The position numbers and the translations under genes were made by a program. Below are positions 1-11,030 of a DNA stretch of 11,030 nt, one piece after another; position 1 is the first letter of the stretch, and each line of letters opens with the position of its first letter. The stretch covers positions 1 through 11,030 of the forward strand of contig JABXGS010000048.1 of NCBI GenBank assembly GCA_016550425.1. The letters run 5' to 3'. The notes under the pieces are model-generated. The model saw nothing but the letters and a program-made list of their open reading frames with translations. It was not told where the DNA came from and searched no databases. The DNA is from an archaeon. GTDB taxonomy: Archaea > Asgardarchaeota > Hermodarchaeia > Hermodarchaeales > Hermodarchaeaceae.

Positions 1-255
1 AACACAGCAGGCATGCGCCCAAGTTTCAAATACCTGGTGCTGGCGAAGTGCGTTCCATAGCTGGTTAGGCTGGTAATCCTTTATGCGGTTTCGTAGGGTT
101 AGATGGTGGCTTCTGGCTACGACAGATATCGAGTCAAGTTGTACAGCAGCGATTTCTTTGATAGCTTTTTGTGGTGTTGACCAAAGAGGATCTTCACCTA
201 AACCTTGGCGTATTGTGAATGCTGCTTGTAAGGATGGAATGTCTACGAATTCCAT
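1..255 (-). CDS. YcaQ-like winged-helix DNA glycosylase, N-terminal part (runs off left edge)
   Basis: Reading the minus strand from ATG at 255 gives 85 uninterrupted codons to the window edge, so the gene is partial. The translation contains, in order, LQAAFTIRQGLG (residues 9-20), IAAVQLDSISVVARSHHLTL (about 36-55) and a final ETWAHACC. This order (aliphatic helix, QLDS-V-VRAHH, then E-WAHxA) is that of the YcaQ / HTH_42 family (COG3214). Members unhook interstrand DNA crosslinks or excise alkylated bases; the QLDS and AHH region is the family's most conserved part. The ATG is the only ATG/GTG/TTG in frame after the TGA at 294-292. There is no strong SD; a TATA-like CCTTTTATGG lies about 50 nt upstream (310-301). 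It lies 83 nt downstream of the methyltransferase gene on the same strand. Family assignment is from recognised motifs; activity is inferred. Confidence 0.8.
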   Translation of the reverse strand, partial: MEFVDIPSLQAAFTIRQGLGEDPLWSTPQKAIKEIAAVQLDSISVVARSHHLTLRNRIKDYQPNQLWNALRQHQVFETWAHACCV

Positions 256-300
256 TGGACCACGTCTAGATTGGATATGACGTATCTCTCTTCAATCTAA

Positions 301-310
301 CCATAAAAGG
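301..310 (-). promoter_or_regulatory. Possible TATA box for the YcaQ-like gene
   Basis: On the minus strand this reads CCTTTTATGG. A transcript start about 25 nt downstream would fall near 279 and leave a leader of about 24 nt before the ATG at 255. No clear BRE is visible, and the gene could instead be read through from the upstream operon. Confidence 0.25.
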
Positions 311-338
311 GTAATATGGCATCGCATGATCTTTGAAA

Positions 339-1127
339 TTAGTTAGACTTCTTCAATGTGAATACAACTGCATCGATGGGCGCTTTAACTATACAGGGTT
401 CATCAATCTCGAAATCCGTGTATGCTCCAAACAGAGTATTCCAATAATCAAGAGGTTTGAACACAAAGGCAAAGAAGAGCAACCACGCAAACATCTTCCG
501 ATTTCGAATCAACTCGAGAGTGACAAATCTTCCTCCGGGTTTAAGAACACGGGTTATTTCGTTGAGGGCTTTGATTTTCATAGCTTCCTCTTCAATTTCA
601 TGGAGAACTGAACCCATGGTGACGACATCAAAGCTAGCGTCCTCGAAGGGAAGTTCGGTGGCATCACCATGTTGAAATTCTGTTTGGTCACTGACTCCTT
701 CAATGCGTGCATTTTCTGTAGCAACATTAAGTGAAGGCCCATTTACCCATTCGAAGATATCGATCCCTGTGACCTTGCCCGTGGTTAAGCGCTTCGCAAT
801 TCCTATGGCGACCCGACCAGTTCCACACCCGATATCAAGAACCTGTTCATCCCCATTGAGTGTTTTATCGAAACCTGAAACCGTACTCCACATTGGTCCT
901 ACTTTCTCAAGGTGAAATACCCTTCGATAAAGAAGCGCATAGGCGATGCCCAGCCATAATCCGATAATCGCAAATGGTATGCCAATCCCAAGAAGAAACC
1001 ATTGGAAGGGAGGAAGAAATTGAAATGATAGAACCGTTAATATCAATCCGGCAATTCCAAGCATTCCTAATGCAGCAAAGGGTTTGATTGCGACAAAACC
1101 ATACTTCGGTTTCTCTGTGTTTGTCAT
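339..1127 (-). CDS. Membrane-anchored class I SAM-dependent methyltransferase
   Basis: 262-aa protein. Two hydrophobic helices (about residues 15-36 and 42-66) precede a UbiE/Methyltransf_11-type Rossmann domain. Motif I is VLDIGCGTG (97-105), followed by the acidic residue of GIDI (121-124), HGDA (153-156), FDVVTMGSVLHEI (166-178) and LKPGGRF (195-201). It should bind S-adenosylmethionine and methylate a small molecule, lipid or quinone near the membrane; the substrate cannot be read from sequence. A further hydrophobic stretch (213-222) may dip into the membrane. I chose ATG at 1127 because GTGA lies 6 nt upstream. A TTG at 1181 is in frame and would add 18 charged residues and overlap the preceding gene by 14 nt. 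Last member of the likely five-gene minus-strand operon. Confidence 0.85.
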   Translation of the reverse strand: MTNTEKPKYGFVAIKPFAALGMLGIAGLILTVLSFQFLPPFQWFLLGIGIPFAIIGLWLGIAYALLYRRVFHLEKVGPMWSTVSGFDKTLNGDEQVLDIGCGTGRVAIGIAKRLTTGKVTGIDIFEWVNGPSLNVATENARIEGVSDQTEFQHGDATELPFEDASFDVVTMGSVLHEIEEEAMKIKALNEITRVLKPGGRFVTLELIRNRKMFAWLLFFAFVFKPLDYWNTLFGAYTDFEIDEPCIVKAPIDAVVFTLKKSN

Positions 1128-1167
1128 GGGTTTCACTTTTTTCTCTTCTTTGCTATTACTTCTGTAT

Positions 1168-1977
1168 TCAATATTTAGCAAAGCCCAGCATCTTGGGAAC
1201 CAACTCCTCTAGTAATGGCTCAAGTGTGGGGCCTGTCGGATCTCGAGTTTCATGATAAAGAATGTCTAATTGCTCCGCCACTGTTTGAGCTGCTCTTCTG
1301 GGTACTTGACGACGGTCTCGGGGATTTGATTTATGGCCTAAAAGGGCAATGGGGACATCCCCGTTAATATCTTTAACAAGATCATGCAAAGATGGAATTG
1401 AGTCTAAAGCTTGTTTGTTCCGTACATTATAAACCAGAATGGTTCCATGGGCTCCCCGATAATGAGTGAGAAAATAAGGGATATGGGGTGGAAGGATATT
1501 CCAAGCAAGAACTCGAACCCTGTTTTCAGCATTCTCATAATCACGAAAGGAGAGGCTGAATCCAAGGGTTGCTCGGTAATCAGAAGGGCTGATTTCAAAG
1601 TGTGATCGTTCAAGGAGATTCGTGAGGTCGAGGTCTTTATCGGCCACGATTAAAAGTTTGAGTCCAAATTCTTGGCGAGACAAATCGCCCATTAATGCAG
1701 TTTGAGAGGTGATTGTATAACCACCAGGAAGCAATTGTTTATCTTTCAGCCAGGCGTGAAATTGCGTCGCCATTTCAGCTTCTTTCTGTTTAACTGGATC
1801 CAGAGAATTTACCACTACTCTGTAGGGATCCGTAGAATCCTTGGCTTCATCCACAATTCGAAGCTTCATATCGAATCGTGTGAGCTGGGATTGGCAATTC
1901 GGGCATTGACCTTGTTCGTCACGCTCAACAGACTTTCCACAATACCAGCATTCTTCCGGAATAATCTCTCGCCTCAA
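1168..1977 (-). CDS. Zinc-ribbon protein with degenerate Rab/Ras-like GTPase fold (pseudo-GTPase)
   Basis: 269 aa. Residues 10-28 form a zinc ribbon, CxxC-x11-CxxC (C10, C13, C25, C28). Residues 107-265 follow a Rab-family small GTPase from end to end, but the nucleotide-binding motifs are lost. The P-loop position reads VADKDLDLT (111-119), with no GKS. Switch I keeps ATLGFSLSF (136-144). The DTAGQ position reads WNILPP (159-164). HYRGAHGTILVYNV (172-185) is a near match to the Rab helix-strand segment after switch II. NKxD has become HKSN (215-218), and ETSAK reads HETRD (242-246). GTP binding and hydrolysis are therefore unlikely; a scaffold or sensor role is inferred. The start is TTG at 1977, the only one ahead of the zinc ribbon; it overlaps the TGA of the radical SAM gene (TTGA), and GAGTGA lies 4 nt upstream. 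Residues 35-106 form a linker I do not recognise. Confidence 0.8.
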   Translation of the reverse strand: MRREIIPEECWYCGKSVERDEQGQCPNCQSQLTRFDMKLRIVDEAKDSTDPYRVVVNSLDPVKQKEAEMATQFHAWLKDKQLLPGGYTITSQTALMGDLSRQEFGLKLLIVADKDLDLTNLLERSHFEISPSDYRATLGFSLSFRDYENAENRVRVLAWNILPPHIPYFLTHYRGAHGTILVYNVRNKQALDSIPSLHDLVKDINGDVPIALLGHKSNPRDRRQVPRRAAQTVAEQLDILYHETRDPTGPTLEPLLEELVPKMLGFAKY

Positions 1978-3263
1978 CTTTTCACTCGTTTGTGGTCCTT
2001 TTCTCTGTTGCGCAATGAGCGTGTTTTCCCTAGATTGTCGAGTTCCTTTTTGGTTTGCTCTAAAATCGGACCTGTTCCTTTGGACAATATTTCTTGAATT
2101 TCCTCAGCGATGGCAGAATGTATCCCGAGCTGCTCTTCTAGGACACCTTGTTGGATAAGGTCGGCTATTTCGCTATTGCTTCTCTCGATTTGAATAGCCG
2201 CATGAAGATACGGTTGCCAAGTCTCTCGGTGCTTTCCCAACACCATTGACTGGTAAAACACAATATCAAGTAGCGAATTGAGAACCTTAATGTTGAGGGG
2301 AGATTCACCTGGTATTTTATGCCGTAGAGAACGATCTGAAATCCCCACTTCCTTGCAGATTTGCCGTCCTTGAATCATTACATTAACAGGCAGCAGGTCC
2401 ATGATTGGATAGCCATAAGTGTGATTATTTGCATATATCTGCTGCAGCAAATCAAAGGATTCGGGAACCTGTCGTCGGACGACATTGAAGAAATAGGCTT
2501 TCTGGCGTCCTGGCTTGAGGGTCATCCCCGAAAAGAGGATAAACTCTGCCTCAGCTTTCTTCGCATCTTTCGCTAGTCCCTCCATGTTCTCAATGGAATC
2601 GCCAATCGTGGGTATGCAAGGATAGGCATAAACGCCTCCAAATAATCCAGCCCTTCGAATCTCTTTTAGCGCTGCAAATCTTTCCCAGGTTGCCGAGGAC
2701 TTGGGCTCAAATATCGTCTTCATCTCTTCATCATGCAATGTGATGCTAAAACAGACATTCACAAAGGCTTGTTCATGTATCTCCTTCAGCAAATCCAAAT
2801 CCTCCAAAACCGAAGCAGATTTTGTCAAGATAAAAACTGGTAAACGAAAATCGTGGAGGGTTTCCAGCACCTGGCGCGTGATACGATACTCCTCTTCAGC
2901 CTGCTGATAGGCATCTGAAACCCCTCCCGAAATTCCTACAATGATTTTTTGTGGCCCCTGATCAATTAATTTCGACGCATCTTTGTCGTTGAGGAATCGA
3001 ACCAATGTTTCCGATTTAACACGACTTTGAGATCGTAACTTCGCTCGTTCTAGTTCTTTGCGAAGAATTTGTGGGGCATTTTCTTTTATTCGGATGTGGG
3101 TGTAAAAATTGTCGATGCGATAATACTGGCAGTTTCCATCGCAGTACACACACCCGTGTTCACAACCTCGATATGAGTTCATGTGGCGGTGGCTGTGAAA
3201 CCATGTATCACCATAATGTAGTTTGGATAACAGTGTCTTGGCTTGAATTTTTTCGTATTGCAT
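1974..3263 (-). CDS. SplB-like radical SAM protein (COG1533, DNA-repair photolyase family)
   Basis: 429 aa. YRGCEHGCVYCDG (31-43) supplies the C-x3-C-x2-C ligands (C34, C38, C41) of a radical SAM 4Fe-4S cluster. Other COG1533 hallmarks follow: IRIKENAPQILRKEL (57-71), IIVGISGGVSDAYQQAEEEY (107-126), LPVFILTKSASVLEDLDLL (141-159) and FSITLHDEEM (172-181). Spore photoproduct lyase repairs UV-linked thymines, but most archaeal relatives have no proven substrate. This one has an insertion of about 25 residues (80-104) between the cluster region and the first strand, and a basic helical tail (about 345-429). Start is ATG at 3263; no strong SD is seen, and 60 nt separate it from the upstream gene. 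Its stop overlaps the start of the pseudo-GTPase gene, so the two products are probably made together. Family is certain from motifs; the substrate is unknown. Confidence 0.88.
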   Translation of the reverse strand: MQYEKIQAKTLLSKLHYGDTWFHSHRHMNSYRGCEHGCVYCDGNCQYYRIDNFYTHIRIKENAPQILRKELERAKLRSQSRVKSETLVRFLNDKDASKLIDQGPQKIIVGISGGVSDAYQQAEEEYRITRQVLETLHDFRLPVFILTKSASVLEDLDLLKEIHEQAFVNVCFSITLHDEEMKTIFEPKSSATWERFAALKEIRRAGLFGGVYAYPCIPTIGDSIENMEGLAKDAKKAEAEFILFSGMTLKPGRQKAYFFNVVRRQVPESFDLLQQIYANNHTYGYPIMDLLPVNVMIQGRQICKEVGISDRSLRHKIPGESPLNIKVLNSLLDIVFYQSMVLGKHRETWQPYLHAAIQIERSNSEIADLIQQGVLEEQLGIHSAIAEEIQEILSKGTGPILEQTKKELDNLGKTRSLRNREKDHKRVKS

Positions 3264-3323
3264 TGACTTCCAAGGCTAGGATGATGAGTAGAAACATTAA
3301 CTTTGTTATCTTTCGGTTTGTAA

Positions 3324-3692
3324 TTAGGTGTGATGAAGTCCGTTCACCTGTTGGATGATTTGAAAGATGAATTCCCCAAAGTTCCCACTATTTCGAATCC
3401 GTTTTTTCAGGTAATCTCGAAGAACATGCTTGTCCATTCCAACATCGCATTGACTTAGAACCACAACCTCAGTGAGTAAATCCAAGAGGAGGCGTTGCTC
3501 ACGGCGAGTGAGAGTTGGTCCCAGCTTATCGAGAACGTAGAAGGCATCGGAGAATTCAAGGGTTCCAACAGTTGACAGTTGAGTGAGAGCCGACAAGGTG
3601 TGGCCCGCTAAATAGTCCTTCCCGATTTCAAGAAGGCGGTCACTAATTTTCTCGTCTTTGCCGACGTTTTTCTTTACTTTGCTTATTGACAT
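3324..3692 (-). CDS. Small all-helical protein of unknown function
   Basis: 122 aa, not recognised. The sequence is predicted by eye to be wholly helical, with a basic N-terminus (residues 1-15), a leucine-rich core including REQRLLLDLLTEVVVLSQ (64-81), and a basic LRDYLKKRIR (91-100). It has no signal peptide, membrane segment or metal motif, and a single Cys (82). Start is ATG at 3692 with GGGAG about 10 nt upstream; that SD lies in the last codons of the regulator gene, whose stop is only 6 nt away, so the two are almost surely co-transcribed. It may be a partner of the adjacent regulator or of the radical SAM protein; no sequence evidence decides this. Confidence 0.7.
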   Translation of the reverse strand: MSISKVKKNVGKDEKISDRLLEIGKDYLAGHTLSALTQLSTVGTLEFSDAFYVLDKLGPTLTRREQRLLLDLLTEVVVLSQCDVGMDKHVLRDYLKKRIRNSGNFGEFIFQIIQQVNGLHHT

Positions 3693-3698
3693 GATTCA

Positions 3699-4358
3699 TT
3701 ACTCCCGTCTCTCCTCGATGAAAACACGAAAACGATGCTGGCGCGCCTCAGCTGGATCGACCCGAACACGTATGCCTTCCAACAGCTGACTCAGACGATT
3801 CCAAAAATCCTGATGAAACTGGGTTGCCAGTGCATCAGGAAGGACAGCTAATGCTGACTGGAACACGTTGTTGTGAATAACAATGGTTTGTTGTTGCCCT
3901 ATCTGGTCAAAGGAAACATAGAATCCAAACTGATCTAATGCTTCAACGATTCTGATAAGTCGATCTTGGAGATTTCCAGTGGGTGTGTCAGGGAGGATTT
4001 GCTGCCATACTCGGGTTACTACTTGACGAATGAGCGTGTTGGTCGTTTTCGCATCCAAAGATCGAACAAGAACCTGGAAGAGGGCTTCAAGAAACGATGT
4101 CGTTTGTGTTGGAAACAGAGAGTAAGCTAATGGTGTTAGGGTGTAGAGGCGTTTGGGCCGCCCACGTGTTGCGTGTTGATAGGTTGAGAAGATGAGTCCA
4201 GCGAGTTCCAATACGTCCAAATGACCACGAATCGCACTGATGTTGATTCCAAGATTTTCTGCAAGAGTGACAGCATTGACGTCGGTTCGTAGCAGGGATT
4301 CGAGGATGAGTCGGCGTGTCCCTGTTACTATTGGGGATAGCTTGTTTTGTGACGTCAC
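3699..4358 (-). CDS. Winged-helix transcriptional regulator (COG2345-like)
   Basis: 219 aa. A winged helix spans about residues 14-78: RRLILESLLRTDVNAVTLAE, then GINISAIRGHLDVLELAGLI with the recognition helix, then the wing RGRPKRLYTLT (65-75). That wing is typical of COG2345 (SufR/DeoR-like) regulators. The C-terminal half (80-219) is an effector or dimerisation domain of about the usual length. SufR relatives hold an Fe-S cluster through conserved cysteines, but this protein has no cysteine at all, so it cannot sense Fe-S that way. Start is GTG at 4358, about 35 nt from a good TATA box. As first gene of the minus-strand cluster it probably controls its own operon; this is inferred from position. 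Confidence 0.8.
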   Translation of the reverse strand: MTSQNKLSPIVTGTRRLILESLLRTDVNAVTLAENLGINISAIRGHLDVLELAGLIFSTYQHATRGRPKRLYTLTPLAYSLFPTQTTSFLEALFQVLVRSLDAKTTNTLIRQVVTRVWQQILPDTPTGNLQDRLIRIVEALDQFGFYVSFDQIGQQQTIVIHNNVFQSALAVLPDALATQFHQDFWNRLSQLLEGIRVRVDPAEARQHRFRVFIEERRE

Positions 4359-4391
4359 GTCGCTGAACCTTGAAGGTCCTGATGCCTTTTT

Positions 4392-4402
4392 CTATTTAAA
4401 TC
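4392..4402 (-). promoter_or_regulatory. TATA box of the regulator/radical SAM/pseudo-GTPase operon
   Basis: On the minus strand this reads GATTTAAATAG, close to the archaeal TTTAWATA box. The expected transcript start is near 4370, leaving a leader of roughly 12 nt before the GTG at 4358. The 160-nt gap to the permease gene upstream supports a separate promoter here. Nothing else in that gap (4359-4518) stands out. Confidence 0.5.
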
Positions 4403-4518
4403 AATATGTAGGTAATAAAGTGACTATAATGTGGGTAATAGAGACGTTTTACGTTGAATGGGTTAATCCTATCAACACGTTCGCCATCATTCGTAGCGCG
4501 CAGATTGGTTCTTAATAG

Positions 4519-5784
4519 CTACTCATAGCGGAGCGCTTTGACAGGATCTAGCTTAGCTGCTTTGCGGGCAGGGTAGAGTGCAAAGACAACGCTAACGAGG
4601 ATAGCGAAGCCCATCGCGATGAGAATAGTTTCAATTGGCAGGACAGGAACCAGTGTGAAGGTACCGCTTCCACCGAACCCACCGAACCCGCCACCATTGC
4701 CTCCAAAGTCTGTAGCAAATCCTCCGCTAAATAAGGCTGGTAGCATGAGTCCCATTCCATAGGCGAGGAAGAATCCGACGACGATTCCAATGACTCCTCC
4801 GATGACTCCGAGTAACACGGCTTCCGATATGAATTGGCTGAGTATAGTTCGGTCTTTAGCTCCGAGTGCTTTCATAATTCCAATTTCGCGGGTTCGCTCC
4901 ATGACAGAAACGAGCATGATGTTGAGAATCGAGATGCCTGCAACAAGAAGAGCAATTGAGGCAATTGCCAGTAAGAAGACCTCCATGATGTTAAAAACAT
5001 TTGACACCATATCAATAATCGCAGTAGGGACAAGGACATAAACTTGGTCCTGGAAGGCATCGCTGATTTCATCAGCAATCGTATTTGCTTGGTTGGGATC
5101 TCCAATTCGGACTAAAATGCTATCGATATTTTCGGTGTTGAATATGGCTTGATACGCATCAAAAGGCATGAATACTGATCGATCAAAGGGAAGCATCCCG
5201 GTTGATCCAACTTCATCTAAAACCCCACCAACGATAAAGGAATAGTTAAGATAAGCAAAACCAATACCAACGCGGACTAGGACTTCAATTGTAACATTAT
5301 CTCCTGCCTGCGCAATAGGATCCTGTAGATACCCAATGACGATTGATTCATTATCATCAGGATAATCACCACTAGAAAACGTAATACGGTGACCATACGT
5401 TGCTTCCAAGTCGGTAAAGTTCATGCCAGCCAATCGTGTGGCTAATGTTCCCCCTGTTTCATTATAGACAGTGATCCCTGATTGTGAAAAAGGTAATGTG
5501 GCCTCGACTCCTGTAATGTTTTGGATTGTATACGTATCATTGATGTTGAATGTTGTTAGTCCACCCCCTCCCAGAAGTCCACCACCTGGTAATACTGTAA
5601 GAATGTCCATGTCCAATCCTTGCATCAACTGTGCATTAATTTGGGTTTCAAAACCGCCACTTAGAGCAGAAATTGAAACCACTGCCATAATACCAACAAT
5701 AATGCCTAATGTAGTAAGGGCAGTTCGGGATTTTCGACGCCTCATATTTGTAAACGATAATCCGAGAATATTGCGGAATTTCAT
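4519..5784 (-). CDS. MacB/FtsX-type ABC transporter permease
   Basis: 421 aa with the MacB layout. TM1 is about residues 22-42, after the basic MRRRKSR. A large extracytoplasmic MacB_PCD-like domain covers about 43-265. TM2 is 268-292, followed by the coupling segment ERTREIGIMKALGAKDR (296-312). TM3 is 320-345 and TM4 385-405, and it ends in YPARKAAKLDPVKALRYE. These are the hallmarks of type VII (mechanotransmission) ABC systems, which export or move lipids, peptides or drugs. Two glycine-rich stretches are unusual: GGGLLGGGG (67-75) and GG-G repeats at 354-374 in the outer TM3-TM4 loop. Start is ATG at 5784, overlapping the ATPase stop (ATGA) with GGAGGCGA about 6 nt upstream, so the two are coupled. 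Confidence 0.92.
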   Translation of the reverse strand: MKFRNILGLSFTNMRRRKSRTALTTLGIIVGIMAVVSISALSGGFETQINAQLMQGLDMDILTVLPGGGLLGGGGLTTFNINDTYTIQNITGVEATLPFSQSGITVYNETGGTLATRLAGMNFTDLEATYGHRITFSSGDYPDDNESIVIGYLQDPIAQAGDNVTIEVLVRVGIGFAYLNYSFIVGGVLDEVGSTGMLPFDRSVFMPFDAYQAIFNTENIDSILVRIGDPNQANTIADEISDAFQDQVYVLVPTAIIDMVSNVFNIMEVFLLAIASIALLVAGISILNIMLVSVMERTREIGIMKALGAKDRTILSQFISEAVLLGVIGGVIGIVVGFFLAYGMGLMLPALFSGGFATDFGGNGGGFGGFGGSGTFTLVPVLPIETILIAMGFAILVSVVFALYPARKAAKLDPVKALRYE

Positions 5785-6554
5785 TGAATCGCCTCCAGTC
5801 CACCACCTGCATGTTCGGCAACAAATTCCCCATCGCGCATTTCAATAACCCGATCGGCAACGGTTGTAAGCCTTGTATCGTGTCCCACCACAATGAAGGT
5901 GAGTCCTTGGGTTTTATTCAACTGCCGAAGCAGAGTGATGATTTCGGCTCCTGTTTTTGTATCGAGATTTCCCGTGGGTTCATCTGCCAGGATAATTCGC
6001 GGGTTATTCGCAAGTGCCCTAGCAATAGCTACGCGTTGTTGTTCCCCACCACTTAATTCTGAAGGGACATGATCACGACGTTCACCCAGACCAACCCGGG
6101 TGAGAAGATCACGCGCGCGTTCATGTGCTGTTGCAGAGGGAATGTCAGCGAATTTTAGAGGTAGTTCAACATTTCCTTGAGCTGTAAGTTGAGGCATTAA
6201 GTTGAAAAATTGAAACACAAACCCTACTCGACGTAGCCGTACATCAGCGAGTTTATTGTGGTCAAGCGTGGAGAGATCCAAGCCTTCGACGTAGACTTTT
6301 CCGCTAGTGGGCTGGTCGAGGGCCCCAAGTAGGTGTAAGAGAGTGGATTTGCCGCTACCTGATACCCCTAAGATAACGAGGAATTCACCACGGTGTACTT
6401 GGAGGTTAACTCCACGAACGGCATTGACTTCAACGGGGCCCATCTGATAGGTTTTCCATAAGTCGATGGCTTCTATGATGTATTTTGAGGTCCTGGATTG
6501 GTAGTCAAATAGGGCACTTAGGGTATCCTCGGTGGGTTGTTCTGCTTGGGTCAC
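5781..6554 (-). CDS. MacB/LolD-type ABC transporter ATP-binding protein
   Basis: 257 aa. Walker A is GVSGSGKST (63-71), Q-loop Q115, signature LSGGEQQRVAIARAL (167-181), Walker B IILADEPTGNLD (187-198) with catalytic E192, and the H-loop H225. FQFFNLMPQLTAQGNVELPL (114-133) is typical of the LolD/MacB/SalX group (COG1136). The first 25 residues are an extra, polar N-terminal extension. It powers the permease encoded next. Start is GTG at 6554 with GGTGA 6 nt upstream; the ATG just before is out of frame. The gene is divergent from the PadR regulator, which probably controls it. Confidence 0.93.
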   Translation of the reverse strand: MTQAEQPTEDTLSALFDYQSRTSKYIIEAIDLWKTYQMGPVEVNAVRGVNLQVHRGEFLVILGVSGSGKSTLLHLLGALDQPTSGKVYVEGLDLSTLDHNKLADVRLRRVGFVFQFFNLMPQLTAQGNVELPLKFADIPSATAHERARDLLTRVGLGERRDHVPSELSGGEQQRVAIARALANNPRIILADEPTGNLDTKTGAEIITLLRQLNKTQGLTFIVVGHDTRLTTVADRVIEMRDGEFVAEHAGGGLEAIQ

Positions 6555-6615
6555 GGTTTTTCACCATTCTGTTGAGTGGGATTCTCTCTGGAAGGAATTT
6601 ATGACTCTAAAAAAC

Positions 6616-6653
6616 ATGAAATTAACAAACATATATAAGCTTTCGTAATTCAT
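6616..6653. promoter_or_regulatory. Shared divergent promoter with candidate PadR operator
   Basis: The only good TATA element between the ABC and padR-type genes is ATATATAA (6631-6638). Read plus, it lies about 27 nt before the PadR ATG, giving a leaderless transcript. Read minus, CGAAAG-CTTATATATG has a good BRE and would start the ABC message near 6609, with a leader of about 55 nt. An imperfect inverted repeat flanks it: ATGAAATTA (6616-6624) and TAATTCAT (6646-6653), matching at 8 positions with one extra A and a 21-nt spacer. A dimeric regulator bound there would block both directions. TATA is seen directly; the operator role is inferred. Confidence 0.5.
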
Positions 6654-6661
6654 TAGGTCAT

Positions 6662-7141
6662 ATGGCATTTCCGCCATTCTTCCAACGACCAAAGGGCGTA
6701 CTCCTACGCATATCAATACTTCGAATACTCAACGACGAACCCATGCATGGCTATCAACTTATGAAGCAAATCGAAGAATCAACAAGTGGGGCTTGGATTC
6801 CTTCGCATTCTCTACTTTATAACACCTTAAGCGATCTCGAAGAACAACGCTTTATCTCCAGTAAGAAAGAATTCAAAGGCGAAGTAGAACGCACCAATTA
6901 CTCAATCACTAAGGCAGGAAAGACCTACCTGAAAGAACAAGTCACACAAATGGTTCGAATGATTTCCCAAATGATGAGCACAGCAGCGATGCGTCCATTT
7001 CAACAGATGCCTCGCCTACTCCTAGAACAGCTCGAACCGGAAGAGCGGAGAACCTTTCTTACTCAGGTAAGGGATGCGCTACAAGACTCGCTCCAAGAAG
7101 TGGAAAAAGACTTAGCGAAATTAGAATCCCACGAGTCTTAG
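6662..7141 (+). CDS. PadR-family transcriptional regulator
   Basis: 159 aa. The N-terminal winged helix has the family pattern: LLRISILRILNDEPMHGYQL (14-33) with the hallmark P-HGY, the recognition region PSHSLLYNTLSDLEEQRFI (47-65) and the wing end RTNYSITKAGKTYL (77-90). The C-terminal part (about 93-155) is a charged helix with coiled-coil character, as in two-domain PadR proteins that dimerise through it. PadR members commonly repress neighbouring ABC or MDR exporters and release on binding the exported compound. Here the gene is divergent from an ABC exporter, with a shared TATA element. ATG at 6662 lies about 27 nt after TATA, so translation is probably leaderless. Confidence 0.92.
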   Translation: MAFPPFFQRPKGVLLRISILRILNDEPMHGYQLMKQIEESTSGAWIPSHSLLYNTLSDLEEQRFISSKKEFKGEVERTNYSITKAGKTYLKEQVTQMVRMISQMMSTAAMRPFQQMPRLLLEQLEPEERRTFLTQVRDALQDSLQEVEKDLAKLESHES

Positions 7142-7177
7142 TTTTAGAGCGCATGGAGCTATTTTGATTTTTGAAAT
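7142..7177 (+). terminator. T-rich stretch after the PadR gene
   Basis: TTTTAG, TATTTTGATTTTTG and similar runs follow the PadR stop codon within 35 nt. Archaeal termination often needs only such U-rich tracts. No stable hairpin is obvious. The facing gene on the other strand ends at 7181. Confidence 0.35.
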
Positions 7178-7180
7178 AAC

Positions 7181-7432
7181 CTAAAGGTCTTCATAAGGGA
7201 CACCGCCTTGAGGTTCCCGAGGAAAGAAAACGGGAAGCCATGGAAGAACAGCAAGCCCACCAAAGACTAGAAAAAGAATGAGTAATGTGATGAGATTTTC
7301 AGAGGGTTGCAAGGCGGAGCTAAAAATGATTATCCAAATCACAGCGATGATGGCGAAAGCAATTAGGAAAATCAGGCTCGCATACACTCGGGATTTTCGG
7401 CTGAATGGGTGCGGTTCTTTCTTCTCGTTCAT
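7181..7432 (-). CDS. Small two-helix membrane protein, unknown function
   Basis: 83 aa, not recognised. A short basic N-terminus (NEKKEPHPFSRKSR) leads into TM1 (about residues 16-38), a short polar loop (SALQPSEN), TM2 (about 47-69) and a soluble tail ending GGVPYEDL. The positive-inside rule puts the N-terminus in the cytoplasm, so both ends are probably inside. I chose ATG at 7432 because GTGA lies 4 nt upstream; a TTG at 7462 is also in frame and would add 10 residues. It converges with the PadR gene and lies downstream of the flavin-reductase gene on the same strand, 71 nt away, so the two may be co-transcribed. Confidence 0.65.
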   Translation of the reverse strand: MNEKKEPHPFSRKSRVYASLIFLIAFAIIAVIWIIIFSSALQPSENLITLLILFLVFGGLAVLPWLPVFFPREPQGGVPYEDL

Positions 7433-7503
7433 TTCATCACGAGTTGTTTTTGGTTGGCCCAATAATCTGAAAGGCGTGGGAATGCTTTGGTATATGGAGA
7501 GCG

Positions 7504-8070
7504 TTAGAATTTAATTTCAACGGATTCAAGACTGCAGGTTGTAAAGAACTGCTTTCCTGTGTGCTGTGCCGGCCGGAATTTGGTGATATCCCAGGTTTTA
7601 GAGAAATAACCTTCCATGACATGAGCAGCCATAATTTCTCCAATGATAATATCATGATCTCCCGTTTCTATGGTTTTCCACACTTTACATTCTAAGTGTG
7701 CAACGCATTCCTCGATAAGAGGGGCTGTCACCATTTTCGCTTTTCGCGGAGTAAGATCTAATTCAGCGAACTTATCCATGTCTTTTCCGCTGATTCGTCC
7801 TGCGCGCATGACCTTCTCTGCCATGTCAAAGGTTGGAATATTGACCACGAATTCACCGGTTTCTTGGATAATTTTGTATGAGAATCGTTCTTTTCGAATA
7901 CTCATCGCTATGAGAGGAGGATTCACACTAGTGGGTATAATCCAGGCAATTGTCAAGACATTATTTTGACCATCTTTGGTTTTTGATGAAACCATTGCTG
8001 CATTGTACGGATGCAACATGTAAATTGATTGGTTCAGGGGAACCGTTACTTTTTCTGGACCTTCAGGCAT
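7504..8070 (-). CDS. Flavin-reductase/flavoredoxin-like FMN-binding protein
   Basis: 188 aa, the usual length for the family (Flavin_Reduct, COG1853). Visible family blocks are HPYNAAMVSSK (20-30), NVLTIAWIIPTSVNPPLIAM (37-56), GEFVVNIP (72-79), SGKDMDKF (94-101), ECVAHLECKV (121-130) and GDHDIIIGE (137-145). Members bind FMN in a split-barrel fold and either reduce flavin with NAD(P)H or carry electrons, often in anaerobes. The partner here is not evident. Start ATG at 8070 places PEKVTVPLN at the family's usual N-terminus; an in-frame TTG at 8097 is possible but no better supported. It is divergent from the MBL-fold gene with about 175 nt between. Confidence 0.88.
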   Translation of the reverse strand: MPEGPEKVTVPLNQSIYMLHPYNAAMVSSKTKDGQNNVLTIAWIIPTSVNPPLIAMSIRKERFSYKIIQETGEFVVNIPTFDMAEKVMRAGRISGKDMDKFAELDLTPRKAKMVTAPLIEECVAHLECKVWKTIETGDHDIIIGEIMAAHVMEGYFSKTWDITKFRPAQHTGKQFFTTCSLESVEIKF

Positions 8071-8145
8071 TTCTGAACAACTTCCAATACGATTCAAAGC
8101 TTAACAGATACTTAGCTTCGTTGGCTTGGTATGGATTATTTTACT

Positions 8146-8156
8146 CCATAAAAAGG
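8146..8156 (-). promoter_or_regulatory. Possible TATA box for the flavin-reductase gene
   Basis: Minus strand CCTTTTTATGG. The expected start near 8125 leaves a leader of about 55 nt to the ATG at 8070. The box closely resembles the one before the YcaQ-like gene (CCTTTTATGG). Confidence 0.3.
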
Positions 8157-8215
8157 CATACCACTAACTAGGTGTCGTACACTCATAGTAGCTTTATCAG
8201 GTGGATTACTCAGGA

Positions 8216-8223
8216 TTTTAATA
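8216..8223 (+). promoter_or_regulatory. TATA box for the MBL-fold/GNAT gene pair
   Basis: TTTTAATA, centred about 27 nt before the GTG at 8248. The spacing predicts a leaderless mRNA, which supports GTG 8248 over the later in-frame TTG 8257 and GTG 8263. Confidence 0.45.
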
Positions 8224-8247
8224 GCTCTGCTTCCCTCTACAATCTGT

Positions 8248-8904
8248 GTGGTTCAATTGACTGTGACCATAAAATATCTAGCTCATGCTAGCTTCCAAAT
8301 CAAATCCGATACGAAGATCATCTACGTCGACCTTGAAGAATACGCCAAACCCAAAGAACCCGCTGATATCATACTCTCAACACACATTCATACTGATCAC
8401 TGTGATCCAAAGAAAATCAAGACAGTTCGCACAGATAACACAGTAGTTATTGCCCCCAAAAATTGCCATGAAAAAATTGGTGGCACCGTGTATGCTCTAA
8501 AACCTGGAGAAGAAAAAGTAATTGATGATGTAACGATACGAGCGGTTGAAGCATATAATGAAACACGCTTCCGCTCCCCAGGAAACCCATATCACCCCAA
8601 AGGATTGGGTGTTGGTTACATCATCACAGTTGAAGGTAAACACATCTACCATGCCGGAGATACTGATTTTATCTCAGAAATGAAAGAACTTGGGTCTATT
8701 GACGTTGCTCTACTGCCAGTTGGTGGCACATATACGATGGAAACAGATGATGGAGCCGATGCGGCTCTCGCCATAAATCCCAAAGCCGTTATCCCAATGC
8801 ATACATGGGGGAAACCTGTTTCGGACTTCAAAGATAAGATTGAAGCCAATTCAAACATTCAAGTCGCTATCATGGAAGAAGACGGCGAATTCACCGTCAA
8901 CTAG
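8248..8904 (+). CDS. MBL-fold metal-dependent hydrolase (UPF0173/COG2220-like)
   Basis: 218 aa. Starts with KYLAHASFQI (9-18), typical of COG2220. Metal ligands are all present: STHIHTDHCD (44-53; H46, H48, D50, H51), the HAGDTD block (H135, D138) and IPMHTWG (H185). It should bind two metal ions, usually zinc. Members include RNA/DNA-processing and small-molecule hydrolases; this short form (UPF0173 length) lacks the beta-CASP insert, so nucleic-acid cleavage is not indicated and the substrate is unknown. The GTG start lies at the expected leaderless position. GNAT gene follows after 60 nt on the same strand. Confidence 0.9.
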   Translation: MVQLTVTIKYLAHASFQIKSDTKIIYVDLEEYAKPKEPADIILSTHIHTDHCDPKKIKTVRTDNTVVIAPKNCHEKIGGTVYALKPGEEKVIDDVTIRAVEAYNETRFRSPGNPYHPKGLGVGYIITVEGKHIYHAGDTDFISEMKELGSIDVALLPVGGTYTMETDDGADAALAINPKAVIPMHTWGKPVSDFKDKIEANSNIQVAIMEEDGEFTVN

Positions 8905-8964
8905 CCCTGTTCACCTCCAAAGTATCCAAATGAATTGACGCAAAAGGAGTGAGTGTGACAATCT

Positions 8965-9750
8965 GTGACCATTAAAGTGCAACCACTCACTGTCCCCATC
9001 AAAGAAATCGAAGACTACCTGCGCCAAGATCTTCCTCTCAATGGATTACCCCTATACGATCTCACCTTAGCCTGGGATTCGAGTGAATGGTTCATTGCTC
9101 GAGAAAACGGAACACTTGTCGGATGTCTTATTGTGTACACTGGGGGTCGTGGGATGTACAGTTTCTTTACTCGTGGCAACCCTCCGGTTGTTGATAAACT
9201 CATAGCCAATATGCCTTATCCTACAATTTTTGCGATTATCCCACAGGAGCATCATCCAATTGCCAACGCTTATTACCAATTTCTTTCATACGGCACCTTT
9301 CTCTTGATGATACTTGAAGAATCGCGCTGTCAAATGCCTAAACTTCATGAAACCATTCGCATGACTCCCAAAGACCTAACTGAGGTAGACAGATTTTACT
9401 CAACAACCACTGCTGGGGCATGGAATCCAGCGCAACTCGACATTGGTCCCTTTTACGGAATCCGTGACCACAACAAACTCGTATCGATTTGTGGAACAAT
9501 CGGGGTCTATGAAGCTAGTCCCGGTGTCGCTGTAATTGGCAATCTTGTCACGCTCCCAGCATATCAGAATCGTGGCTATGGAACTAGCGTTCTCTGTGCT
9601 GTTATTCGTGAACTCTTCAGTAAATTTCAACATGTGACACTCATGGTTGACTCCGATAACCTCGGGGCCATCCGTATCTATGAACGGTTGGGCTTTCTCG
9701 TTCATCGTAAGCTAGATATCGGTGTCTGCCAACGACGTGAAACACGCTGA
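8965..9750 (+). CDS. GNAT-family N-acetyltransferase
   Basis: 261 aa. The C-terminal half is a GNAT domain: motif A is IGNLVTLPAYQNRGYGTSVL (191-210), with the acetyl-CoA pyrophosphate-binding Q-x-R-G-x-G (Q201, R203, G204, G206). Motif B follows as VDSDNLGAIRIYERLGF (228-244). This matches the FR47-like/Eis-distant GNATs. The N-terminal half (1-130) has a weaker GNAT-like pattern (WFIARENGTLVGCLIVYTGG, 42-61), so it may be a tandem with a degenerate first copy. The acceptor substrate is unknown. Start GTG 8965 is the first after an in-frame stop; GGAGTGAG lies about 12 nt before it. The start context (GTGACCAT-AAA) closely resembles that of the MBL gene (GTGACCATAAAA at 8263). Probably co-transcribed with the MBL gene. 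Confidence 0.88.
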   Translation: MTIKVQPLTVPIKEIEDYLRQDLPLNGLPLYDLTLAWDSSEWFIARENGTLVGCLIVYTGGRGMYSFFTRGNPPVVDKLIANMPYPTIFAIIPQEHHPIANAYYQFLSYGTFLLMILEESRCQMPKLHETIRMTPKDLTEVDRFYSTTTAGAWNPAQLDIGPFYGIRDHNKLVSICGTIGVYEASPGVAVIGNLVTLPAYQNRGYGTSVLCAVIRELFSKFQHVTLMVDSDNLGAIRIYERLGFLVHRKLDIGVCQRRETR

Positions 9751-9777
9751 CCTTTACTCATCAGAAAATAAAAGCCA

Positions 9778-9879
9778 TTATAATCGTTTACTGGTCTTCT
9801 TCTTTGGTTTTTTCTTCTTTGATTTCTCTGGTAACACATCTACCCAATTTTCGTGATCTTTATCTCGGGATTCACCCAT
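9778..9879 (-). CDS. 33-aa Lys-rich microprotein (candidate)
   Basis: Short ORF from ATG 9879. The first half is acidic and polar (MGESRDKDHENWVDVLPEK); the second half is almost all Lys, Pro and Ser/Thr (KSKKKKPKKKTSKRL), resembling a nucleic-acid-binding or ribosome-associated tail. An excellent SD, GGAGGTC, lies about 6 nt before the ATG, better than for most genes here. Against it: the Lys codons are the complement of the T-rich tract after the GNAT gene, which by itself could be a terminator. I do not recognise the protein. Confidence 0.4.
   Translation of the reverse strand: MGESRDKDHENWVDVLPEKSKKKKPKKKTSKRL
9795..9827 (+). terminator. T-rich tract after the GNAT gene
   Basis: Plus-strand pyrimidine-rich run including TTCTTCTTT and GGTTTTTTCTTCTTT, 45 nt past the GNAT stop. 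It has the look of a U-rich archaeal terminator. The same bases on the minus strand encode the Lys-rich tail of the 33-codon ORF. Confidence 0.4.
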
Positions 9880-9949
9880 TATGCGACCTCCGGTTCGTTG
9901 AATTAAAGTTTTGACTAGACGCCCCCTATGATGTTAAGAAATTGAAGGG

Positions 9950-9967
9950 TTTATCCAAGGGGATAAA
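9950..9967. repeat. Perfect short inverted repeat TTTATCC-AAGG-GGATAAA
   Basis: 7-bp arms (9950-9956 and 9961-9967) with a 4-nt spacer, in the divergent gap between the 33-codon ORF (minus) and the first repeat unit (plus). It could be an operator or a small hairpin. One arm sequence, GGATAAA, recurs at 10189. Confidence 0.4.
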
Positions 9968-9981
9968 AAGCCGCCAGTAAC

Positions 9982-9990
9982 ATTTTTAAT
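9982..9990 (+). promoter_or_regulatory. TATA-like box before repeat unit A
   Basis: ATTTTTAAT, expected transcript start near 10010. An equivalent box precedes unit B (AAATATTTAATC, about 10676-10688). Position relative to the repeats is alike in both. Confidence 0.3.
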
Positions 9991-10195
9991 CCGCTGTTTT
10001 CAATCCCGTGCTGAGGTGTATTCAATGATTCTATTCAAAAAGGGTACACTCGCATATTCGTTGAGTCAATAGTGAGATTCGCGAATCTATTTTCACCATC
10101 ATTATCTGGATTGATGAAATGGCTGACATAAGGTTAGACGAGGCGGGAATGATCGCGTTGTGCAAAGCGATAAGGGCAGTCCAGAAAAGGATAAA
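9991..10195 (+). repeat. Repeat unit A: diverged direct copy of unit B (10702-10880)
   Basis: The best-conserved part starts at 10069. Blocks shared with unit B are ATAGTGAGATT-C/G-GCGAATCT, TGGATTGAT, ATG-N-CTGA, and TTGTGCAAA-GCGATAAGGGC versus GGTTCAAATGCGATAGGGC. Both copies begin with an AATCCGC next to a TATA-like box and hold a hairpin soon after it (here GAGGTGTA 10013-10020 with TACACTC 10045-10051). Both copies end 40-55 nt before the next predicted promoter start. Unit A holds tiny ORFs of 15 codons (10025-10072, GAGGTG upstream) and 30 codons (10119-10211); only an 18-codon ORF (10818-10874) sits at the same place in B. They may be short paralogous RNAs or duplicated small-protein genes. 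Confidence 0.5.
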
Positions 10196-10211
10196 CAATC
10201 ATTTATTATAA
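10119..10211 (+). CDS. 30-codon ORF in repeat unit A (doubtful)
   Basis: ATG at 10119 preceded by TTGATGA. The product is short and partly amphipathic (MADIRLDEAG, then ALCKAIRAVQKR). The ATG and the next few bases are shared with unit B, where reading continues for only 18 codons and the frame is altered by two 1-nt indels (an added T after CAAA and a lost A in ATAAGG). No recognised family. Confidence 0.2.
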   Translation: MADIRLDEAGMIALCKAIRAVQKRINNHLL

Positions 10212-10228
10212 TAGCAAGACTTTTATAC
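10202..10228 (+). promoter_or_regulatory. TATA-like elements before the structured RNA
   Basis: TTTATTATAATAG (10202-10214) and TTTTATAC (10221-10228). The first predicts a start near 10233, just before the 5' arm of the RNA's closing helix (10239); the second would start near 10250. Confidence 0.4.
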
Positions 10229-10307
10229 TAATTAAAACGCCCTCTCACCCGCAACTCGGGGCCTGCAAAGGTTTCGGGTTGACAACACAATTGGAGGGAT
10301 CCAGGAA

Positions 10308-10445
10308 ATGGGCCCAAACCGAAATCGAACTCGACTAGCAGAAATGGGAGTCGCTGAACGTGCTGTTGCGGGTGTACGCAACCCTGCTCCAGTTGCACGT
10401 CCTGAAGTGCGGCGAGCTATCATGCTTGTGCTCACCCGACATTAA
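10308..10445 (+). CDS. 45-codon ORF inside the structured region (doubtful)
   Basis: ATG 10308 with GGAGG about 10 nt upstream; product rich in Arg, Ala and Val (begins MGPNRNRTRLAEMGV). It overlaps arms of three helices of the proposed RNA, and a longer overlapping frame also exists on the other strand, which suggests chance open frames in GC-rich DNA. Kept only as an alternative reading. Confidence 0.15.
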   Translation: MGPNRNRTRLAEMGVAERAVAGVRNPAPVARPEVRRAIMLVLTRH

Positions 10446-10537
10446 CTGGTGAAAGGGACAATGAGTGCACTCAACACAGAGTCTTCACGACTCATTCGGT
10501 AACGGGTCTTCGCAACGCTTCAATGCCACCTATCGCC

Positions 10538-10567
10538 GTAGCGGGGAGGGAAGTACATCTCTGCTAC
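10538..10567 (+). other. 10-bp hairpin within the structured RNA
   Basis: GTAGCGGGGA, loop GGGAAGTACA, TCTCTGCTAC; two of the ten pairs are G-U. One more C-G pair extends it (10537/10568). It is nested inside the 15-bp helix at 10498-10512/10612-10626. Confidence 0.55.
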
Positions 10568-10700
10568 GACATGAAGTAAACCGTCCAGGACTGTATTTTT
10601 TAGTGTGTCCTCGAAGGTCCGTTACCTCCATTTTTGGTTCTTAGTCCCCTGATCCGTGGCAGAGGGCTTAGTAGAAAAATATTTAATCTAGCTTGGGTAA

Positions 10701-10726
10701 TCCGCCGGTGAGGCTTATCCGGTGGA
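10701..10726 (+). other. 8-bp hairpin at start of repeat unit B
   Basis: TCCGCCGG, loop TGAGGCTTAT, CCGGTGGA, with one G-U pair. It lies about where a transcript from the TATA-like box near 10682 would begin. No T-run follows, so it is not a simple terminator. Confidence 0.45.
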
Positions 10727-10880
10727 ATTGAATAAGTTGGATAATTAGCCCTTGTCGCCATGTGGATAGTGAGATTGGCGAATCTTTTGTTAGTCGGTTA
10801 TATGGATTGATCTTAGAATGTCTGAGAAGGAAAGTTTCGCAGGGTTCAAATGCGATAGGGCTAGTTCAGATTAGGTTAAT
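10702..10880 (+). repeat. Repeat unit B: diverged direct copy of unit A
   Basis: The conserved core is 10766-10879. It contains ATAGTGAGATTGGCGAATCT (10766-10785), TGGATTGAT, the ATG of an 18-codon ORF (10818-10874), and the hairpin TCGCA/TGCGA around GGGTTCAAA, which matches ATCGC/GCGAT in unit A (10152-10170 region). The two arms of that hairpin differ between copies yet both still pair, a hint that RNA structure is kept. Confidence 0.5.
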
Positions 10881-10895
10881 TGTTTGTTTTTTCTT
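10881..10895 (+). terminator. T-rich tract after repeat unit B
   Basis: TGTTTGTTTTTTCTT directly follows the conserved core of unit B. It is a plausible U-rich terminator for a short transcript from that unit, just before the promoter of the next gene. Confidence 0.35.
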
Positions 10896-10896
10896 A

Positions 10897-10912
10897 TAGA
10901 AATATATTTAAA
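10897..10912 (+). promoter_or_regulatory. BRE/TATA promoter of the gene at 10955
   Basis: TAGAAA followed by TATATTTAAA (10903-10912), a good archaeal BRE and TATA pair. The expected start near 10933 leaves a leader of about 22 nt carrying the SD AAAGGAGG (10940-10947). Confidence 0.55.
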
Positions 10913-10954
10913 CCATTGCTTGGATACCCACTTCAAATCAAAGGAGGCTTAGCC

Positions 10955-11030
10955 ATGCTCCAAAATGAAGAACCAATTGCAGAGATCAAAGAGGTCGTTC
11001 GGGTGTACAAGAAACCCCTCCATCGGCCGC
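10955..11030 (+). CDS. Start of a protein gene, function unknown (runs off right edge)
   Basis: ATG 10955 with a strong SD, AAAGGAGG, ending 7 nt upstream, and a well-placed promoter. Only 25 codons are visible: an acidic start (MLQNEEPIAEIKEVV) followed by a basic RVYKKPLHRP. This is too little to name a family. That it is a real gene is likely from promoter plus SD; its relation to the repeat and RNA region before it is unknown. Confidence 0.65.
   Translation, partial: MLQNEEPIAEIKEVVRVYKKPLHRP

Follow-up and report, generated by a model that had tools for sequence, protein, structure and literature searches.

A zinc-ribbon-bearing, Rab-like pseudo-GTPase of Hermodarchaeota, probably a constant protein-binding module

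We analysed a stretch of 11,030 nucleotides from an archaeon of the Hermodarchaeaceae (GenBank assembly GCA_016550425.1, contig JABXGS010000048.1, positions 1 to 11,030), called the window hereafter, and concentrated on one gene of it, at 1168..1977. Judged by its sequence and those of its relatives, the protein belongs to a family which descends from small GTPases and has lost the G motifs clade-wide, under a purifying selection measured in one unsaturated pair of genes. Owing to this loss of motifs, the family is predicted not to bind GTP. Taken as a whole, the observations are probably best explained by a Rab-fold pseudo-GTPase which occurs in Hermodarchaeota, archaea related to the ancestors of eukaryotes, and which needs no nucleotide to serve as an always-on protein-binding module. 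Most likely it is not a switch but connects proteins permanently, with a putative role as an adaptor. A preliminary description, made from the letters of the window alone, had given the gene its correct coordinates; the coding strand is the minus strand. The TTG start overlaps the stop codon of the radical SAM gene upstream. The parts of the gene are as follows.

1168..1977, minus strand (1977 to 1168): coding sequence of the pseudo-GTPase with zinc ribbon, 269 amino acids, TTG start, stop included
1894..1950, minus strand: putative zinc ribbon, residues 10-28, CxxC-x11-CxxC, cysteines in all aligned rows reaching there
1669..1800, minus strand: family-specific helix and loop, residues 60-103, conserved about as well as the G-like domain
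1621..1644, minus strand: P-loop equivalent by alignment, residues 112-119 (ADKDLDLT)
1546..1581, minus strand: switch I equivalent, residues 133-144 (DYRATLGFSLSF), strongly conserved in the alignment
1486..1503, minus strand: G3/switch II equivalent by alignment, residues 159-164, WNILPP replacing WDTAGQ
1444..1464, minus strand: HYRGAHG, residues 172-178, the Rab YYRGA motif retained (Y173, G175, H177 and G178 each in 17/17 rows)
1324..1335, minus strand: G4 equivalent by alignment, residues 215-218, HKSN replacing NKxD
1237..1251, minus strand: G5 equivalent by alignment, residues 243-247, ETRDP replacing ETSAK

The Rab-like domain extends from about residue 102 to the C-terminal end. The Pfam Ras model matches the window protein with E=3.9e-12, over the Pfam cut-off, and among solved structures Rab8A of the PDB matches it best in sequence (E=3.6e-12); hence the resemblance to Rabs is far beyond chance. 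The CxxC-x11-CxxC ribbon of the preliminary description is there, at residues 10-28, and so are ATLGFSLSF, WNILPP, HYRGAHGTILVYNV, HKSN and HETRD, all in the register it had given them. Its statement that all nucleotide-binding residues are replaced goes too far: T137, T119, K216 and the ET of ETSAK are retained in the window. We aligned the window protein with 16 relatives, which makes 17 rows (alignment A3 omits P0001, P0005, P0006, P0009 and P0010, repeats or near-repeats of the window or of a locus). Rabs are marked by the specific motifs RabF1-5 and have an interswitch aromatic triad. Of the triad, W159 and Y173 are found in every row and the third place is L or M, not F; G175, G178, K216 and R223 are likewise Rab residues retained in 17/17. 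HYRGA is largely retained, and the segment after G3 is two residues shorter.

The nucleotide site has changed throughout the family. In 17/17 rows the P-loop glycines are replaced by A/S and D/E and the P-loop lysine by the aliphatics L, A, V or I; at the DxxG place the Asp is N or S and the Gly is P (the DxxG strings found in 14 rows all sit away from the G3 place); the Asn of NKxD is H or Y; and the three places of SAK are occupied by R/Q/K, D/N/S and P. Neither GxxxxGK[ST] nor [NT]KxD occurs anywhere in the sequence of any of the 17 rows, so that orthologues regularly bearing intact GKS and NKxD motifs, which the preliminary description had named as the observation that would overturn it, were not encountered. 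The replacement residues are in turn invariant or almost invariant: P163 and P247 in 17/17, D117 and P164 in 16/17, N160 and H215 in 15/17. No cysteine for C-terminal prenylation is present in the last six residues of the 17 rows, one of which (P0013) is truncated. We found 49 paralogue places in the four genomes which carry the gene, and examined 40 of them for motifs: GxxxxGK[ST] is retained in 39 of these 40 other small-GTPase frames, as it is at four further paralogue places (L129-L132, one of them from G069). The 40th frame enters the domain after an apparent frame break; it belongs to a Rab-like gene of G003 (L115, 2-1054, minus strand), the P-loop part of which apparently lies in another frame, owing to an assembly or gene break.

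The reading frame is intact in all five loci available as DNA (the window and L001-L004). The rate of synonymous substitutions (dS) is undefined or above 2.3 in nine of the ten pairs of loci, and the selection test consists of the one remaining pair, L003 and L004, for which the rate of nonsynonymous substitutions (dN) is 0.035, dS is 0.224 and dN/dS is 0.157; the neighbouring AlkZ-like gene has a dN/dS of 0.142 in the same pair. This agrees with the preliminary description, which had called the gene conserved and not in decay. A gene on its way out could account for the loss of the nucleotide motifs and for the fact that one genome, G068, lacks the gene in an otherwise similar block. Intact frames in five loci and a dN/dS so near that of the neighbour make such decay very unlikely, and so do the fixation of P163 and P247 and the conservation of the family over 17 rows down to 49% identity (P0015-P0017 are the most distant, at 49-51%). 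In the ribbon stretch, the proportion of nonsynonymous differences (pN) is 0.16-0.22 against 0.61-0.97 for synonymous ones (pS) in the nine pairs besides L003/L004, that pair being uninformative there (pS 0). With pN so far below pS, we concluded that the ribbon is coding. The residues of the linker, 37-59, vary freely.

The predicted structure matches the small-GTPase (Ras) fold, even when family sequences alone are used, and displays a helix at residues 61-79. A structure prediction followed by a fold search had been proposed in the preliminary description, with a structure of another fold as the outcome that would contradict it; the small-GTPase fold was recovered. The 12 best-ranked chains for the model built from a deeper alignment are all Rabs complexed with exchange factors (SH3BP5, TRAPP, Mon1-Ccz1, GRAB, Fuzzy-Inturned, Rabin8, Sec2, rabex-5), several of them nucleotide-free, and the top five stand more than 1 Z unit above rank 13. 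We take TRAPPII, GRAB, Rabin8, rabex-5 and Fuzzy-Inturned to act as exchange factors in the matched complexes. One may then imagine a frozen mimic of a nucleotide-free Rab, which would capture exchange-factor-like or roadblock/longin proteins and thereby tune the active small GTPases of the cell. In favour of it, seven genomes contain 20-31 Ras-family and 9-13 roadblock matches each. However, the ranking covers models of the pseudo-GTPase only, Foldseek places an active, GppNHp-bound Rab8 third for the same model, and the ranks of the model made from the family alone are tied in one ranking and led by Rab3B with Rep15 in Foldseek. We consider this mimicry unlikely, though worth keeping in mind. 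The search for TRAPP gave no match in the seven genomes, but it gave none in any control either and so shows nothing.

Several observations weigh against a constant module devoid of nucleotide. The switch-I threonine T137 is retained in 15/17 rows (Ser in the other 2), K216 of NKxD in 17/17, E243 in 16/17 and T244 in 17/17; the P-loop Ser/Thr place (T119 in the window) is T or S in 8/17 and the Asp place of NKxD is D in 2/17. These survivals make a weak or unusual binding of some ligand conceivable, and the protein could be a sensor in which remodelled contacts still hold a nucleotide or some other small ligand; the replacement of the P-loop glycines and lysine in every row argues against it, and we regard a sensor as quite improbable. 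The model made from the family alone has a low confidence (predicted local distance difference test score, pLDDT, 59.8), and the superposition of its Foldseek matches is loose, the top one having a root-mean-square deviation of 12.6 and a template modelling score of 0.59 to the target; the deeper model is drawn towards the Rab fold by the active Rabs of its alignment. Finally, curated ribbon models match below their cut-offs (DZR_2 with E=0.0037 for the window, Zn_Ribbon_1 with E=0.0038 for L003), and the ribbon assignment rests on four cysteines.

These four cysteines are encoded in frame upstream in 5/5 DNA loci, and among the aligned rows which reach them the first pair is present in 7/7 and the second in 8/8; they presumably bind zinc. 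In databases the ribbon is missing from several entries: protein P0001 begins at Met37, P0007-P0011 have the same start, and P0002, P0005, P0006, P0012 and P0014 include the ribbon wholly or partly. The putative start codon is TTG in the window and in L002 and GTG in L003 and L004. In L001 (about 6230-6290) no ATG, GTG or TTG follows the in-frame stop before the first ribbon cysteine is reached, and in all five loci ATTATT comes after a GGCGAG-like stretch (1977-1950 in the window). Initiation may therefore be non-canonical.

A profile search of 5.8 billion proteins returned 17 family members (13 in an earlier protein search), two of them named Promethearchaeota archaeon, three hypothetical protein and the remainder unnamed. 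The search of Asgard genomes for orthologues, which the preliminary description had suggested, found the gene in 4/227 genomes of the phylum taken as Asgard archaea, with one copy each; as the best 11 candidates at most were scored per genome, a very diverged copy could escape. So far, the pseudo-GTPase has been seen in Hermodarchaeota only, as a single copy. The 17 rows form a single clade (100/100) on a stem of 1.55 or 1.72 changes per site in two trees built without eukaryotic sequences, the first (alignment A4) with 27 of the 40 paralogues and the second with 36. Other matches with E<=1e-22 were considered as orthologues elsewhere; they occur only in G093, G094, G095 and G097, and the one that was read, L016, turned out to be an active Rab, its motifs reading GDHAVGKTS and NKTD. 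It belongs to an Asgard protein of 532 amino acids (L016, 907-2505, minus strand) whose active Rab domain lies at 183-338 by Pfam and whose last 170 residues, which get no Pfam call, resemble a second degenerate G domain, possibly another pseudo-GTPase.

The neighbours of the gene in the window are the following.

1974..3263, minus strand: radical SAM protein with CxxxCxxC, upstream, nearest to the PA0069/Rv2578c families, below cut-offs
339..1181, minus strand: S-adenosylmethionine (SAM)-dependent methyltransferase, downstream, with a relative in the G068 block and none at that place in L001-L004
1..255, minus strand: start of the gene for an AlkZ-like DNA glycosylase, truncated where the window ends (PF06224, E=4e-09)

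The radical SAM gene lies upstream in the 4/4 loci with flank (the window and L001-L003), overlapping the pseudo-GTPase gene in the window and separated from it by 103 bases in L002 and 249 bases in L003; in G004 the two genes are found on separate contigs, both close to an end. The AlkZ-like gene is downstream on the same strand in 5/5 loci (PF06224 with E=7.1e-55 for the copy of L002), and only in the window does a methyltransferase lie between. A chimeric assembly was considered, but separate contigs show the same gene order, which makes it unlikely. The radical SAM protein is found in 80/227 genomes (E<=1e-60) and the AlkZ-like protein in 35/227 (E<=1e-40). This means that both usually occur without the pseudo-GTPase, which lies within the flank of 3/30 radical SAM loci (G001-G003). 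G068 holds the same gene block (ABC transporter, FtsX-like permease, helix-turn-helix protein, 122-amino-acid protein, radical SAM, methyltransferase) without the pseudo-GTPase, and the tree places its radical SAM protein immediately outside the proteins of the window and L001-L003 (95/94), so that both a gain after the split and a loss in G068 are possible. Where the radical SAM gene is followed in the window by the pseudo-GTPase and the methyltransferase, it is followed in G068 (L080, 5386-6816) by a TrmO-like gene of opposite strand and, next, by the methyltransferase. Beside the radical SAM gene, the genes at 3324-3692 (the 122-amino-acid protein, no Pfam or NCBIfam match) and 3699-4358 (an ArsR/SufR-like regulator) are conserved, in G068 too. 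Further away in the window, about 1.1 kb (9751-10880) holds no open reading frame above 67 amino acids and has no Rfam match, and the frame at 10880-11029 is similar to the beginning of an ABC-transporter gene of L003.

We examined 37 AlkZ-like places together with their flanks, up to 4 kb long if the contig reached that far (some flanks are short). Eight are in Hermodarchaeota-like genomes (G001-G004, G068 twice, G069 and G070, the last three genomes being so called from neighbours 52-69% identical): four of these have the pseudo-GTPase and the other four have no Rab-fold gene within the flank. At 14 of the other 29 places, an active Rab-like gene lies no more than 2 kb away, always on the strand of AlkZ, downstream of it in 12 cases and upstream in 2, and within 250 bases in 11; the remaining 15 have no Rab-fold gene within the flank. 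The seven Hermodarchaeota-like genomes contain 187 Ras-family matches in about 16.6 Mb, from which about 0.05 Rab per AlkZ place would be expected by chance, and in a control of 30 radical SAM loci none had an active Rab-like gene within 1.5 kb. The 14 AlkZ-linked Rabs, with GDGxVGKT and NKxD, form one family (100/100 in the tree); they come from 14 Asgard genomes (L060, L064, L067, L069, L070, L072, L073, L075, L078, L079, L087, L137, L140, L145 and L151, L060 and L087 being the same place). As these genomes are related, one old linkage may be counted many times. The AlkZ-like gene and the active Rab are a candidate for a conserved pair of Rab and DNA-repair genes.

These neighbourhoods suggest a more specific form of the adaptor, in which the pseudo-GTPase would join the AlkZ-like protein as a partner subunit in the repair of DNA lesions, perhaps together with the radical SAM protein, the ribbon contacting DNA or an enzyme. 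YcaQ of E. coli, a member of the AlkZ family, is reported to unhook crosslinks in DNA (PMC7367128). The constant order of the genes and the excess of active Rabs near AlkZ speak for such a partnership. On the other side stand the AlkZ places without any Rab-fold gene within the flank, the position of the active Rabs, mostly downstream of AlkZ where the pseudo-GTPase is upstream, the methyltransferase interposed in the window, and the possible multiple counting of one ancestral linkage. Joining the pseudo-GTPases with the AlkZ-linked Rabs as sister families costs 0.00 log-likelihood (approximately unbiased test, p-AU 0.498), but the test also leaves five of six control groupings standing (one is rejected, at 0.05). 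We regard this named partnership as a tentative possibility, not the one we would choose first.

The permanent connector, which we prefer, could have arisen in the following way. A Rab-like GTPase would have lost its nucleotide site on the stem of the family while retaining the fold; its switch-facing surface (DYRxTLG, W159, Y173, GAHG) would have become fixed together with an added N-terminal helix-loop and the zinc ribbon. One partner might then be held by the Rab face and the helix-loop, while the ribbon would bind another partner or nucleic acid; the best candidate for a partner is the AlkZ-like protein of the next gene. As the nucleotide site is gone and the switch face is retained, a constant binding surface is the simplest way in which the protein could work. 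Small GTPases without nucleotide are stable only when bound to an exchange factor, according to PMC4359372, and the pseudo-GTPase may for this reason be built for stability in the open state.

Pseudo-GTPases are already known, and an archaeal, Rab-derived one fused to a zinc ribbon is new: among the matches listed for the literature on Asgard and archaeal pseudo-GTPases, the titles and abstract openings contain no archaeal Rab-fold pseudo-GTPase. By analogy, the best functional parallel is CENP-M of the human kinetochore, which has the small-GTPase fold with P-loop, switch and DxxG lost, cannot bind GTP and is needed for complex assembly (PMC4080450). The archaeal family shares with it the fold and the loss of the nucleotide motifs, but the switch I which the same paper reports as deleted in CENP-M is here among the best-kept parts, and the ribbon and the helix-loop are additions. 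The second parallel is the fungal dynein light intermediate chain, whose Ras-like domain docks another subunit with a closed, empty nucleotide site (PMC4359372); it differs by its own insertions and by metazoan members which still bind GDP, and the part of that article available mentions no zinc ribbon. The conserved GTPase-like domains of p190RhoGAP, termed pseudoGTPases, are embedded in a large eukaryotic RhoGAP. Active Asgard small GTPases, among them a GDP-bound Thor-Rab, are described in PMC10933270, in whose main text the terms pseudo, degenerate and Hermod are absent. With its active Asgard paralogues, the family shares the fold, the interswitch Trp and an RGA-like segment, whereas these paralogues retain the G motifs and the family sits on its long stem.

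A wider proposal can be made, speculative and in our opinion rather doubtful: Rab-fold proteins of Asgard archaea might take part in genome maintenance, the AlkZ-like protein being paired in some lineages with an active Rab and in Hermodarchaeota with a nucleotide-free, ribbon-bearing scaffold resembling an exchange-factor-bound Rab, an archaeal parallel to CENP-M. If this were true, the Rab fold would have moved from membrane traffic to chromosomes.

The small GTPases of Asgard archaea are viewed as what eukaryotic membrane traffic was built from, and it is easy to assume that each of them is a switch. The conserved, motif-dead family described here indicates that the Rab fold is already employed without a nucleotide site in one Asgard lineage at least, as it is among eukaryotes in CENP-M and in the fungal dynein light intermediate chain. 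Being small and expressible, the pseudo-GTPase offers a test case for the conversion of a GTPase into a scaffold, and the recurrent pairing of Rab-fold and AlkZ-like genes points to a directly testable role beyond membrane traffic.
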